Shown here in pieces: positions 34,301 through 37,161 of a DNA stretch of 64,000 nucleotides (positions are counted from its first letter, which is position 1; the number at the start of each line of letters is the position of its first letter). The DNA lies in contig JAOTON010000972.1 of NCBI GenBank assembly GCA_034440635.1, forward strand, positions 558,001-622,000, in the 5' to 3' direction. The DNA comes from Lepas anatifera. Its lineage: Eukaryota; Arthropoda; Thecostraca; Lepadidae. The notes under the pieces are model-generated. The model was not told where the DNA came from. It saw only the letters and a list, made by a program, of their open reading frames with translations, and did not search any database. Both the position numbers and the translations under genes were made by a program.

Positions 34301-37161
34301 TTTTGTGATCTCTAACTCGGAGATAAGATAGTTTGTTTACAAATCTATACGTGCAATAACTTAACAAAACTGAATGGGCCTGTTCCAATTTTGAAGGGTT
34401 GAACCATAAAAATGTCACAGAAAAATCGTTTCTGACCGATTAAGTAGCTAAATACCTGAACCTCTTATAATTAATACATCCATACAATAAAACATTTCAA
34501 TAGCCTGACAAATCCACCCAAACCCACCAGCTTGACATAAGGTGAGACTTGTAAAGGTGTTTTTTGCGGACCTCACATAATGGGGTCTCTTCAATACTGT
34601 GCGATCTCTTCCGCAACAACTATCAAGGGTAGGGGAGTTCGCCACATCACATACTATCAACGGGATAGTTCACCAGCAGGACCAAGTTAATATGCCGCTA
34701 AACCACGACAATGACCCTGAACTCCTCGTCACCGTCCGCACTCCTGCCCCACCAGAAACCGTCTGATCGTTCGCGTCGGCGACTTCGACCTCAACTACGA
34801 CACGGACGCCCGACACCAGGACGTGCTGGTGGACAGGATCTACCTGCACCCGCAGTACCAGCACCACAGCAAGCACCACGACATCGCGCTGCTGCGACTG
34901 CGGAGGGCCATCCGGCTGACCAGCCTGGTGCGGCCCATCTGCCTGCCGTCCTCCCCCACCGACCTCACCGGCAACTACACCTCCGTCGCCGGCTGGGGCC
35001 ACACCGAGTTCGGTAGGTCCCGCAGGGTGTCTGCCGGGCTGTGAGCACAAACCGGGGATTTCTTATTGTTGGCAAGATGGATATAAGGTTATTTTTTGTT
35101 TGGAAATAAACATCTATCATGTTTTGGAAATAAACATCTATCATGTTTTGAAATAAACTATCATGTTTGTTGGGGTTGATCTTATTAGGTATTATATGTT
35201 TTTTTCAAAACCACTTTTATTTTGTATTCTGCTTTATTTATATTCAAATACACGAAGACCAGTTTGCAAGCAGCCAGATTACAGCATGATTTGTAAGTTT
35301 TTATTTCCATTTACATCGCCCTGTCGGGTTTGAAGTTGCTGACTTTGCTGCTGCTTTGCTCGTCAGGTGGAGAGTCGTCGGCAATCCTGCAGGAAGTTCG
35401 CCTTCCAGTGGTGGACACTGGCAGCTGTGAGGCGCAATATAAAACGCTGGGCGACAATTACGAAGCCGACTTCGCGGGCGGGTTCGGTGATACGAAACTT
35501 TGCGCTCATGATACGACAAACAGCGGCAAGGATGCCTGCCAGGTTCGTATTTCACATCTGACCCTAAAAATTATTGGACTTAGGAGACCAGGCTGCCACA
35601 GTACAACTGGAAACCGTACAAAGCATGGTGTTCACTAAATCGTGCTGTATTGCTTTGAATTCTACTTGCTTATCTGTATATGTTTTAACATCATGTCTTC
35701 CCTGTTTCCTTATCTTTTCAACCGTGAACGTTTTTGGAAGTCGCACTTGGGATTAACGTGCTGTTTCGCTTGTTCTATCCTTTTTATGTGGTTTGCTGTG
35801 GGTACCCAGTTTTTTCTGCACCGTTTGCAGTAGGAAAACGCTTCTGAGCCTTTGAGAAAAATTATATGCGCGTTGATTGGTCATACAATTACCAATCGCA
35901 CCACCAGTGGTCACCAAAGGTCACGGTTTACGAAATTGTTTGTTTATAACTTTCGAACGTGGTAATACAGAGCAATATGTAAATATGGTACTAAAGTGCC
36001 GAGCATGACCTAAGAATTTGAAGGGTTGCAACATGACCCTGAAAGGTCATTATTTGACCTTGACTGGAGGCCAAGGACACTATGTGACCTTTTAAGGTCA
36101 TGCCGCATATTATTGGAATCCTTGGGTCAAGATGAGGACATCGATGGCTTTGTTCTAGGTCTAATGGTTTCCGAGTCATAAAGGAGTTTTCTAAATAGGT
36201 ATAGATCTCACCCATTTTGGCCCTCTGTGACGTCACGGGCCAACGGATATGGTTCAAACTCGGCTTGGAAGTAGAAGACGGTAAGGTGCTTCCAGCGCCG
36301 TTCCATTTTTTCCGTCTGTCATTTGGTTCCCGAGATCGCAAGGGGCGTTGAGAGAGAAAAGAGCCCAGGCGGTGCAGGGTTAAGGTCAGAATCTTGCTAA
36401 GACTACATGGTATGAGGACTTTCAAGTTGAACCCTTTCAATTATCCCGATAGCTATAATGGGGTGACCAAAAACTTGACCCCATCCTAGGTCAAGAATAC
36501 GAAAATTACGAAGAAATTATTGTCTTGTCCAAGACGACAGCAGGTGGTGCTGCATCAGCTGAGGGTGAACTGCTGCCTCCTCCTGAAGGTGGAGAGGGGG
36601 GAGGACGGCCTCTGCGATGCATGCAACGAACCAGAAGACTTGGAACATTACATTATTACCTGCATGAAATATACAGCAGCAAGGCTCATACATTTGGGGC
36701 CCATCCCCCACGCAGCGGTATTGCAGGAGAGACCGGGGGATGTTGAGAGGGGGAATCCGTGCGACCCAGGTCTCCTCCGGGGATCACGTTAATCGGCCTC
36801 GAACGAAAACACCGCATCAGACACACAGAGCAGCTTTTGGTGACCATTTACACTCGTTTTGCGTGTGTTCCAGGGCGACTCTGGTGGTCCGATGACAGTG
36901 CAGGTTTACACCCGTTTTGCGTGTGTTCCAGAGCGATTCTGGTGGTCCGATGACGGTGTAGTACTTACACCTGTTTCGGGTGTGTTTCAGGGCGACTCTG
37001 GCGGTCCGATGACAGTGCAGGACCCTACGTCGGGGCGAGAGGAGCTGGTAGGCATCGTCTCCACGGGAGTGGGCTGTGGACACCCCAGCTTCCCCGGAGT
37101 TTACACCAGAGTTGCCATGTACACCGACTGGATCAAGAAGCATGCATTCGGACGAACGTAA
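16081..37161 (+). CDS. CLIP-domain trypsin-like serine protease gene (7 exons recovered)
   Basis: Exons are 16081-16372, 17479-17730, 24816-25222, 31410-31519, 34756-35012, 35367-35542 and 36991-37161. Their phases (1,1,0,2,1,0) join in frame to 555 codons including stop. The product is a secreted zymogen of the arthropod coagulation/melanisation/Toll-type proteases: a six-Cys CLIP domain, a Pro/Ala/Arg-rich linker, an interdomain 'CG', a long acidic linker, then a protease domain starting at ITGG. The triad is His in 'TAAHC', Asp in 'HDIALLRL' and Ser in 'GDSGGP'. 'DACQGDSGG' puts Asp at the S1 base and Gly-rich pocket walls are present, predicting cleavage after Arg/Lys. The signal peptide exon was not found. 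The activation bond Phe-Ile and the duplicated acceptors at exons 3 and 7 are unusual. CLIP proteases are known from immunity and clotting; this one's exact pathway is not shown. Confidence 0.9.
16373..17478 (+). other. Protease intron 1
   Basis: It contains an open frame at 16,890-17,162 with spaced cysteines ('DYCLIK', 'RHCIKG', 'KHCDAD', 'FGCDT'), which could be a relic or alternative cysteine-knot exon. It lacks the CC pair of a CLIP domain and has no convincing acceptor, so I do not annotate it as coding. A TTAGGTTAGG at about 16,437 is too short to call telomeric. Confidence 0.5.
17479..17730 (+). CDS. Protease exon 2: Pro/Ala/Arg-rich linker
   Basis: The acceptor TTCTCTTTCAG ends at 17,478 and the donor GAAG|GTACGA is at 17,731; entry and exit are both phase 1. 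The 84 residues are low-complexity ('RPAASRPAKPAARPAAKPAS', later 'SLGARPQRPSSRPF'), typical of the flexible spacer between CLIP and protease domains. GC-rich codons contrast with the AT-rich flanking introns, which supports coding status. Confidence 0.85.
18028..18865 (+). repeat. 34-bp minisatellite, about 25 units
   Basis: Units run GGTTAAACAGGCACAGTCGG plus 14 bases (GGAGTGAAGTGGCT). Two sub-types (ending 'gtggct' or 'gtatcg') alternate in the second half, suggesting higher-order expansion. It lies in protease intron 2. Confidence 0.95.
18882..18948 (+). repeat. Degenerate tRNA-like (SINE head?) sequence
   Basis: A box-A-like TGGCGTACTGG is followed about 32 bases later by a box-B-like GGGTTTAAGTCCC. 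Acceptor-stem pairing is not convincing, so it is more likely a tRNA-derived SINE fragment than a tRNA gene. Confidence 0.35.
18949..19453. other. Intron 2 sequence, nothing recognised
   Basis: No exon, RNA or repeat structure could be supported. Confidence 0.5.
19454..19753. repeat. 300-bp foldback (long inverted repeat)
   Basis: Two arms of about 145 bp are complementary around a centre at 19,616. The core 19,603-19,629 is a perfect 12-bp stem (CCAGACCTCGAA) with a 3-base loop. Outward, pairs include 'aggtcaaat.acaaatt' with 'aatttgt.atttgacct', 'cagccctcc' with 'ggagggctg', 'tagatta' with 'taatcta', 'cctgg' with 'ccagg', and 'ttgacaat' with 'attgtcaa'. One arm has about 21 extra bases. 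Such foldbacks arise from foldback transposons or inverted duplication and, if transcribed within the intron, would give long double-stranded RNA. Confidence 0.75.
19754..20064. other. Intron 2 sequence with an unassigned frame
   Basis: A 129-codon plus-strand frame (19,656-20,045) overlaps the foldback's right arm. It is Lys/Gln/Asn-rich and matches no domain I know; its composition follows the A-rich strand, so it is probably chance. Confidence 0.4.
20065..20250 (-). mobile_element. tRNA-derived SINE candidate
   Basis: On the minus strand a tRNA-like head (box A near 'tggccacagtcgga', box B 'GGGTTCAGGTCCC' near 20,180) is followed by a unique body. The body ends 'cgtcgttaaataccaacaa', like the LINE-derived 3' tails of many SINEs. 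Only one copy is in the window, so family status is inferred. Confidence 0.5.
20251..23229. other. Intron 2 sequence, no supported exon
   Basis: Long frames at 22,514-23,064 exist on both strands but neither shows a domain or codon pattern that distinguishes it. Phase analysis gives no room for another protease exon here: exon 2 joins directly to exon 3 as Glu-Asp-Cys-Gly. Confidence 0.5.
23230..23608 (+). repeat. 22-bp minisatellite, about 17 units
   Basis: Repeats of GATTGAAAGGGCGACATCCC plus 2 bases, degenerate at the left end. Because 22 is not a multiple of three, frames through it cycle and produce the long artefactual minus-strand frames. Confidence 0.9.
23609..24663. other. Intron 2 sequence, nothing recognised
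   Basis: No exon, RNA or element supported. Two short phrases ('caaacccaacactcacacattttg' type) are locally duplicated at 23,750-23,830. Confidence 0.5.
24664..24822 (+). repeat. 39-bp tandem repeat made of duplicated splice acceptors
   Basis: Four units each end in a pyrimidine-rich CTCCCCAG or CTCTCCAG followed by ACTGC, the exact start of exon 3. The first three units are 39 bp and the last 38 bp, so the last acceptor (AG at 24,814-24,815) keeps exon 3 in frame whereas splicing at an upstream unit would shift it. Confidence 0.85.
24816..25222 (+). CDS. Protease exon 3: interdomain Cys, acidic linker, activation site
   Basis: The exon starts after AG 24,815 giving 'DCGLISPEL' (the Cys that usually tethers the light chain), and ends at I|GTGAGT (25,223), phase 0. 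Between them is a long linker of about 110 residues, including a basic run of five Arg, a Tyr/Glu/Asp/Pro-rich segment (24,940-25,010) and a region near 25,080. The protease domain then begins 'EVEF-ITGGENALIGRWPWI'. In most CLIP proteases the bond is Arg/Lys-Ile and the linker is short; here P1 is Phe. Limulus factor C has a known Phe-Ile activation bond, so the zymogen may be opened by a chymotrypsin-like activity. Confidence 0.9.
25223..25664. other. Intron 3, left part, nothing recognised
   Basis: Plain AT-rich intron between exon 3 and the MITE. Confidence 0.5.
25669..26645 (+). mobile_element. piggyBac-like MITE, family B copy 1, 977 bp
   Basis: It is flanked on both sides by TTAA (25,665-25,668; 26,646-26,649), the target site of piggyBac-superfamily elements. 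Terminal inverted repeats are imperfect: CACCTGCCCCGGTGGG on the left against CCCTCGCCCCGGTGGG on the right. There is no coding capacity. The interior shares long blocks with copies at 40.5, 37.8 (reverse) and 54.3 kb (reverse), including 'ctggtgacctgacctgag' and a terminal 'cgccggcg..tccgcgcc' hairpin. It sits in protease intron 3. Confidence 0.8.
26650..28454. other. Intron 3 sequence, nothing recognised
   Basis: A short tandem of 'gtgagatttgcggct' occurs at 27,345-27,380. No exon or element supported. Confidence 0.5.
28455..28720 (+). repeat. Degenerate GGCCCC/AGCTG minisatellite, locus 1
   Basis: Units of about 20-30 bp with the core 'gggcccc.ttagctggtctg'. The same degenerate family recurs at 50,200-50,602 and 51,849-52,170, so it is dispersed as a unit. 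Confidence 0.6.
28721..29499. other. Intron 3 sequence, nothing recognised
   Basis: A C-rich patch at 28,890-28,950 and otherwise AT-rich DNA; no gene supported. Confidence 0.5.
29500..30440 (-). pseudogene. Decayed Jockey/CR1-like reverse transcriptase
   Basis: Read on the minus strand across several frames, fragments follow RT order. 'KCTGPDEIPVNIIK', 'APLAKLFNNSL', 'ANVKPVF' and 'NHRSISFLCSF' come at 30,390-30,130, then 'WLCSYTSDRKRVLINHAKSS' and motif B 'VTAGCPQGSVSGP' at 29,870-29,770. A jump follows to the C-terminal 'ERLQNRSARLVTAAPLRNP' at about 29,730-29,680. The catalytic YADD motif is missing, apparently deleted, and stops and frame changes are numerous. It is an old dead insertion in intron 3. 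Confidence 0.75.
30515..31335 (+). repeat. 24-bp minisatellite, about 34 units
   Basis: The unit is GGTCAATGGCCGGCAGTGTG plus TGAC. Because 24 is a multiple of three, it is open in several frames; a plus-strand frame encodes eight-residue repeats 'VTVNGRQC' and a minus frame 'HTLPAIDR'. The array ends about 75 bp before protease exon 4, so its length sets the distance between that acceptor and the intron body. I regard the frames as non-coding. Confidence 0.95.
31410..31519 (+). CDS. Protease exon 4: catalytic histidine
   Basis: The acceptor GCAACAG ends at 31,409 and the donor is AA|GTGAGT at 31,520; phases 0 in and 2 out. It encodes 'TLIGEQRPSQISWFCGGAIV' and then 'SERFIVTAAHCLGKFQ', the beta strand, the 42-58 disulfide cysteines (FCGG, AHC) and catalytic His. 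It joins 'GRWPWI' of exon 3 with standard chymotrypsin-fold spacing. Confidence 0.93.
31520..33589. other. Intron 4, left part
   Basis: A short plus-strand stretch near 32,480-32,560 ('INTSQFGFRN') is reminiscent of the RT 'QFGFR' motif but too short to call. Nothing else was recognised. Confidence 0.45.
33590..33835 (+). promoter_or_regulatory. CpG-rich promoter-like patch
   Basis: An isolated very GC/CpG-rich segment in an AT-rich intron has GGATATAAG at about 33,627-33,635 and an initiator-like GTCAGCA about 20-25 bp downstream. An ATG at 33,666 opens a 51-codon Arg/Ala-rich frame. This arrangement resembles a core promoter, possibly for an alternative or non-coding transcript. No conserved protein is encoded. 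Confidence 0.35.
33836..34755. other. Intron 4, right part
   Basis: Contains a local imperfect duplication of 'cctgtcccattcc..ccctt.ccgtgatt' at 34,108-34,195. No exon supported before 34,756. Confidence 0.5.
34756..35012 (+). CDS. Protease exon 5: catalytic aspartate
   Basis: The acceptor TGCCCCACCAG ends at 34,755 and the donor is G|GTAGGT at 35,013; phases 2 in and 1 out. It encodes 'KNRLIVRVGDFDLN', 'VDRIYLHPQYQ', 'HHDIALLRLRRAI' (catalytic Asp), 'VRPICLPSS' (Cys pairing with the light chain) and 'SVAGWGHTEFG'. All are hallmark blocks of CLIP-protease catalytic domains at normal spacing. It is strongly GC-rich relative to the flanking intron. Confidence 0.95.
35013..35366 (+). other. Intron 5 with a 25-bp tandem repeat
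   Basis: The intron contains 'gaaataaacatctatcatg' repeated about 2.5 times at 35,103-35,166; the rest is AT-rich and ends in a pyrimidine tract and CAG at 35,366. Confidence 0.7.
35367..35542 (+). CDS. Protease exon 6: S1 pocket region
   Basis: Acceptor CTCGTCAG at 35,366, donor CCAG|GTTCGT at 35,543; phase 1 in, 0 out. It encodes 'GESSAILQEVRLPVV', 'SCEAQYKTLG', 'TKLCAHD' and 'GKDACQ'. The Asp three residues before the exon end sits at the base of the S1 pocket (trypsin-like). The exon stops exactly before GDSGGP, so which acceptor is used downstream decides whether the catalytic serine is normal, duplicated or followed by a stop. Confidence 0.95.
35543..35929. other. Intron 6, left part, nothing recognised
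   Basis: No exon or repeat supported. Confidence 0.5.
35930..36390 (+). repeat. Dispersed repeat family A, copy 2
   Basis: Same orientation and block order as copy 1 at 14.1-14.6 kb, including 'cattttggccc..tgtgacgtcacgg' and 'agaagacggtaagg'. The right end 'gagcccaggcggtgcagggttaa' is complementary in type to a TTAA-CCCTGCACCGCC terminus, hinting at a TTAA-targeting MITE; the left end is unclear. Confidence 0.65.
36500..36730 (+). pseudogene. Non-LTR retrotransposon C-terminal fragment
   Basis: The frame reads 'PRRQQVVLHQLRV' then 'GLCDACNEPEDLEHYIITCMKY'. This is the C-terminal CxxC...HxxxxC knuckle following the RT/RNase H region of Jockey-type elements. It is an isolated fragment of about 65 residues in protease intron 6, just upstream of the triplicated acceptor. 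Confidence 0.65.
36847..37020 (+). repeat. Triplicated splice acceptor plus GDSGGP exon start
   Basis: Three tandem units (36,847-36,904, 36,905-36,963, 36,964-37,020; 58 and 59 bp apart) each contain a pyrimidine tract, a TTCCAG or TTTCAG acceptor and the first 30 bases of exon 7. The first and third encode GDSGGPMTVQ. The second encodes SDSGGPMTV then TAG. Confidence 0.95.
36991..37161 (+). CDS. Protease exon 7: catalytic serine and C-terminus
   Basis: The acceptor GTGTGTTTCAG ends at 36,990; phase 0. It encodes 'GDSGGPMTVQ', 'ELVGIVSTGVGCGHPSFPGV', 'YTRVAMYTDWIKKHA' and stops at TAA 37,159-37,161. The Gly residues lining the S1 pocket and the PGVYTRV block are intact, as is the Cys191-220 pair. 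Using the first upstream acceptor (36,873) instead would insert 39 in-frame residues and a second GDSGGP; the middle one (36,931) would truncate after nine residues. Confidence 0.95.
   Translation, partial: GDSGGPMTVQDPTSGREELVGIVSTGVGCGHPSFPGVYTRVAMYTDWIKKHAFGRT

Follow-up and report, generated by a model that had tools for sequence, protein, structure and literature searches.

In the 64,000-nucleotide window of the Lepas anatifera genome analysed here (C913:558001-622000), a gene for an S1 trypsin-like serine protease lies on the plus strand, and the 3' end of its last intron, together with the start of the exon encoding the catalytic serine, is present in three tandem copies. The spliced product was matched by the Trypsin profile (PF00089) over positions 1-220 of 220 (E 1.9e-56); the motifs AAHC, DIALL and GDSGGP, which mark the His, Asp and Ser of the catalytic triad, occur in it in that order. 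Its top homolog, the metagenome protein P0001, is 70% identical over 93% and lacks the additional residues that splicing to an upstream copy would introduce, and its best named match is a protein of Pollicipes (45%). The exons of the gene, of which the two at the 5' end are probable and join in phase, and the three repeated units are as follows.

16202..16372, plus strand: tentative exon with a CLIP-like cysteine pattern (tblastn to P0029; donor phase fits)
17479..17730, plus strand: putative proline-rich linker exon (acceptor TTTCAG/CG, donor GAAG/GTACGA; in phase with the flanking exons)
24816..25222, plus strand: pro-region exon, DCGLISPEL...EVEF/ITGGENALIGRWPWI (tblastn; homologous exon in L052)
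31410..31519, plus strand: catalytic His exon, VTAAHC (tblastn and translation)
34756..35012, plus strand: catalytic Asp exon, HHDIALL (tblastn and translation)
35367..35542, plus strand: exon with GKDACQ at its end, donor CAG/GTTCGT (tblastn and translation)
36847-36903, plus strand: unit 1, with TTTAC, acceptor AG 36873, the code for GDSGGPMTVQ, and then CAG/GTTTAC, a candidate weak donor (36903/36904)
36905-36961, plus strand: unit 2, with TTTAC, acceptor AG 36931 and the code for SDSGGPMTV followed by TAG
36964-37020, plus strand: unit 3, with CTTAC, acceptor AG 36990 and the normal exon start GDSGGPMTVQ (tblastn to P0001, 72%)
36991..37162, plus strand: last coding exon, catalytic Ser, ending AFGRT-stop (tblastn, Pfam and translation)

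The units are direct copies of 57 nucleotides at spacings of 58 and 59, the second and third being 91% and 88% identical to the first, and Tandem Repeats Finder (TRF) returned a period of 58, 3.0 copies and a score of 257. Each comprises 27 intron bases and 30 exon bases, that is, the splice site and the first ten codons, and each has a branch-point-like yUnAy sequence (a match to the motif only) 24 nt 5' of the exon start (TTTAC, TTTAC and CTTAC). The core TTYCAGRGCGAYTCTGG has three exact matches in the window; allowing as many as three mismatches gave five matches compared to 0.66 expected, and five or more were obtained in none of 100 shuffles. The direct-copy alignment, TRF and the comparison of core matches with shuffles thus bear out the triplication of acceptor and catalytic-serine exon start described in an earlier note on this DNA. 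It is a tandem genomic duplication across an intron-exon boundary, in which branch site, pyrimidine tract, AG and exon start are all repeated, and it is derived; the closest paralog in the same genome (C456, 70%) and a neighbouring paralog (C913:464282) each possess a single acceptor at this junction.

An artefact of assembly or sequencing, be it a false duplication or wrong unit lengths, could in principle generate such a pattern, and near-identical, haplotig-like contigs (L029, L030) do exist in the assembly. The pro/activation exon of the neighbouring paralog (L005, ~8700-8770) likewise contains single-base frame breaks, which represent either assembly errors or gene decay, and any in-frame reading of the inserted sequence described below depends on the 58 + 59 nt being exact. 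However, 11 of the 57 positions vary between the units, with changes specific to individual copies (four private to unit 2, all in its exon part, and one to unit 1, in its intron part), and comparable arrays at other loci differ from this one in both sequence and length. Moreover, a DNA search of the assembly (1.04 Gb, 2126 contigs), not exhaustive for repeats, turned up the triplication nowhere else and gave only a 70% match to a paralog's normal exon. An artefact is accordingly regarded as highly improbable.

Scored with a hand-entered weight matrix, the acceptors of units 1, 2 and 3 gave 5.42, 4.25 and 3.71, respectively, ranking 1, 3 and 5 among the 99 AGs between 35562 and 37162; all three look usable. 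The donor at 35542, the acceptors at 36873, 36931 and 36990, and the 117-nt distance between the first and the last of these were recovered as the earlier note had given them, and so were the predicted products. Splicing to AG 36990 would yield the normal enzyme, use of AG 36873 an open, in-frame insertion of 39 residues, and use of AG 36931 a truncated protein in which Gly is replaced by Ser, reading SDSGGPMTV and then TAG. A fourth product had been missed: the candidate donor at the end of unit 1, CAG/GTTTAC, combined with acceptor 36990, would define a 30-nt microexon, in frame, giving GDSGGPMTVQ-GDSGGPMTVQ and thereby an insertion of 10 residues.

This fourth product raises the possibility that the birth of an intron is under way, with donor 36903 and acceptor 36990 bounding a new intron of 87 nt. 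The architecture resembles that of the potato RNA-dependent RNA polymerase (RdRp) gene PGSC0003DMG402000361, where a two-copy duplication across an intron-exon boundary is accompanied by RNA reads supporting a new intron and is absent from relatives (PMC4974935). As in that gene, the donor would be provided by the upstream exonic copy, and the acceptor and branch site by the downstream one (PMC4974935), while the microexon product stays in frame. The donor itself argues to the contrary; by the same matrix its score is -3.39, at the 62.6th percentile of GT sites, compared to the 94th-99th percentiles of the gene's four scored donors. Intron birth at this exon is thus considered unlikely.

The earlier note proposed a double-serine-motif isoform. 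The second GDSGGP is indeed in frame, but since the first GDSGGP of the 39-residue isoform adjoins the native DACQ, the inserted sequence would be equivalent to an insertion in the loop after GGPMTVQ rather than to a second active site. The stretch following GDSGGP, normally 14 residues, would be lengthened to 53 by this insert, which carries one extra Cys, and to 24 in the microexon form, whereas it spans 8-18 residues in the 111 parsable homologs of the 120 listed. When the insert region was compared with ~5.8 billion proteins, no carrier was found; 71 candidates shared words with it, none at E<=10. Two GDSGGP motifs do occur in 7 of the 120 homologs. They were rejected as tandem motifs: they are 158-279 residues apart and each is followed by its own GIVSWG-like segment, suggesting that these are multi-domain proteins or merged models. 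A likeness of VYTRFACV in the insert to the C-terminal VYTRVAM (14 of 17 nt) was dropped as plausible by chance.

Arrays straddling splice junctions were found elsewhere in this gene and in three other protease genes. The second in the window precedes the pro-region exon:

24670..24830, plus strand: second acceptor-spanning array, four copies at spacings of 39, 39 and 38, with acceptors AG 24699, 24738, 24777 and 24815

All four of its acceptors are strong; only the last keeps the frame of the exon, the three upstream ones being out of frame. At the equivalent site C456 has one acceptor, and TRF detected no array within the 801 bases retrieved there. That paralog has arrays at other junctions (3600-3870 and 8806-8917 of L049 joined to L026): its exon-3 donor is repeated 10.8 times in a 25-bp unit, GCCACACCGAGTTCG/GTGAGAGGGC, and its exon-4 acceptor is duplicated in two copies of 57 bp, in frame and open, which would add 19 residues. 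The largest array, on the minus strand at C1812:358995-362320 (L031, L046, L048), consists of ~59 units of an acceptor with the code for GDSGGPL (59 by fuzzy match; 56.8 copies of 60 bp by TRF) and forms a 3.3-kb tract that leads into the active-site exon of a further trypsin-like protease, a look-alike of which (L034) has a single acceptor. On C1551 (L043 508-579, continuing through L051), at least 17 copies (17.7) of 36 bp straddle a putative donor after GVYTRVS in yet another protease, the count being a lower bound as the array runs off the fetched stretch. In the neighbouring paralog on C913, arrays start at one donor and 4 nt after another. Twenty other Ser-exon acceptors with GDSGGP at the same intron position were compared, two of which (L029 and L030) appear to represent a single gene. 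In 19 of the 20 the acceptor itself is free of an array, the exception being C1812; four of these 19 have arrays at other places within the 600 bases retrieved. Two large intronic minisatellites were also recorded in the window, at 18027-18861 (34 bp x 24.7) and at 30515-31314 (24 bp x 33), the latter ending ~95 nt before the His exon.

Tandem repeats accounted for 8.5% of 200 kb sampled from the same contig (20 stretches), and for 4.6% when limited to periods of 20-120. With the triplication included, 4 of 28 junctions in three genes were straddled by an array, against a mean of 3.7 by random rotation; an enrichment of arrays at junctions was not found. In a wider set, 5 of 50 junctions were straddled (P 0.08-0.42; a recount gave 51 junctions without the triplication itself). 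Hence, arrays that straddle junctions in four protease genes, at donors and acceptors alike, occur no more often than expected by chance, consistent with the notion that they are a mutational by-product.

These observations bear on the three-way switch advanced in the earlier note, namely that acceptor choice, three- or four-way, is regulated to provide normal, long-loop and truncated isoforms with distinct roles. Consistent with it are the three good acceptors with their equal branch-point spacing, product frames that agree with that description, the conservation of the exon part of unit 1 relative to unit 3, and the duplicated exon-4 acceptor of C456 (57 nt), likewise in frame. Against these stand the want of any insert-bearing protein or homolog in the searches above, the extra Cys and a loop length beyond the range of the parsed homologs, the recurrence of arrays without enrichment, the out-of-frame upstream copies at 24670-24830, and C1812 copies that never remain open to the end. 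Furthermore, the chance that 117 nt would be both in frame and open is ~1-in-9 (1/3 for frame x 0.32 for remaining open on base shuffles). The switch was consequently not supported and, as judged from sequence, regulation at this exon is unlikely, the whole scheme of isoforms with separate roles being quite improbable.

Instead, minisatellite growth across splice junctions probably left decoy acceptors behind, with the exon-proximal site making the enzyme. A segment of ~59 bp, comprising the last 27 bases of the intron and the first 30-32 of the active-site exon, would have undergone two rounds of tandem duplication, through the minisatellite-type process to which this genome owes its wealth of repeats. 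Of the resulting copies, the one nearest the exon body (AG 36990) presumably joins the intact exon body to give the normal protease and would be kept by selection, while the two upstream copies are thought to be leftover acceptors that compete with the proper site, probably at a low rate and without function. Their occasional use would generate the 39-residue loop insertion, the truncated protein or, through the weak donor, the 10-residue insertion. The same process appears to have struck other donor and acceptor junctions in this gene and in the three other proteases. Repeat growth across a junction is the most economical account; a switch does not follow from the triplication.

Several observations weigh against this account. 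All three acceptors score well, that of unit 1 highest, and the exon-4 acceptor duplication of C456 is both in frame and open. Between units 1 and 3, 6 of 27 intron sites differ compared to 1 of 30 exon sites (synonymous; Fisher P 0.045), so the exon part of unit 1 has been kept and its intron part has not, which could mean that unit 1 is under some constraint; this was discarded as proof that the unit is used, the P value on 57 sites being too weak. The frames in C1812 favour the account, but with reservations: 20 of the 47 upstream acceptors with the exact motif are in frame and none of the 47 is open to the final exon, such that, as assembled, only the last acceptor can make enzyme. This count takes the preceding exon to be in phase 0 and the G runs to be of correct length, and the 7 kb before the array yielded no further protease exon of that gene, which may be incomplete or non-functional. 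Finally, array ends lie <=35 nt from a junction in 6 of 18 arrays, against a mean of 1.56 (P 0.0019, or 0.014 for five or more when the triplication is left out), a cutoff chosen after seeing the data and applied to three related genes; array placement may therefore not be purely random. A less probable reading is that minisatellites in this crustacean lineage start preferentially at splice junctions and give rise to arrays of 2 to ~59 donors or acceptors; the spliceosome would then have to choose the site closest to the exon against the nearest-AG rule, with frame-preserving copies occasionally adding 10, 19 or 39 residues.

The protease itself may be atypical. Its activation site (window 25165-25185), EVEF/ITGG, has no Arg or Lys at P1 and so does not conform to trypsin-like cleavage; R or K occupies P1 in 52 of the 59 parsable homologs (of 120 listed). 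P0002 (PF/IVGG) and the C913 paralog (PF/VVGG, in a broken frame) share this lack, suggesting that activation or activity may be unusual, and the premise that the protein is a zymogen is uncertain. With regard to the CLIP-like exon, tblastn matched P0029, which is listed with PF12032, at 16210-16374 (E 2e-4) and, under permissive settings, P0007 at 16207-16377 (E 4e-4); the Pfam CLIP profile gave no match at E<=0.1.

Close to the triplication, a frame at 36595-36690, CDACNEPEDLEHYIITCMKYTAARLIHLG, resembles the tail of a non-LTR (long terminal repeat) retroelement protein; no Pfam domain was detected in the retroelement-like stretch 36502-36789. Elsewhere in the window, two long reverse-transcriptase frames (RVT_1) lie on the minus strand at 55355-57241 and 60684-62804, as does a tRNA-Ser-like match with anticodon ACT at 58478-58549; Rfam gave no match at gathering thresholds. 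A ubiquitin hydrolase encoded in the window is 52% identical to that of Pollicipes and 53% to that of Amphibalanus, the latter two sharing 71%; together with the Pollicipes match of the protease, this points to a barnacle-related crustacean.

For this gene the message is modest: it most likely encodes one normal protease with decoy acceptors. The natural arrays, with 3 to ~59 near-identical splice sites before the same kind of catalytic exon, provide ready-made tests of 3' splice-site choice. They also reveal how, within a single genome, material from which introns may be gained and exons extended has emerged again and again. No array of splice sites at the active-site exon of a protease was found among the matches listed by searches of an open-licence library. 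NAGNAG tandem acceptors likewise set multiple acceptors side by side at the end of an intron, but these are reported to be 3 nt apart within one acceptor region (PMC3250501), whereas the barnacle has whole acceptor modules 58-59 nt apart. Repeated segments in crustacean introns are known from the neointrons of Daphnia pulex, which contain internal direct repeats ascribed to break repair (PMC4202315); unlike those new introns, the intron before the barnacle Ser exon is common to paralogs and the array straddles its junction. The closest likeness is to the potato RdRp gene, which shares the direct duplication of an intron 3' end and exon start with CAG, pyrimidine tract and TTTAC branch site. 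The potato gene has two copies and an intron proven by RNA (PMC4974935), whereas the barnacle gene has three copies, at a catalytic-serine exon, with a poor candidate donor. Also unlike the potato case, the barnacle arrays involve donors as well as acceptors, and it is their recurrence within one genome and their scale, up to ~59 acceptors before one exon, that are unusual here.

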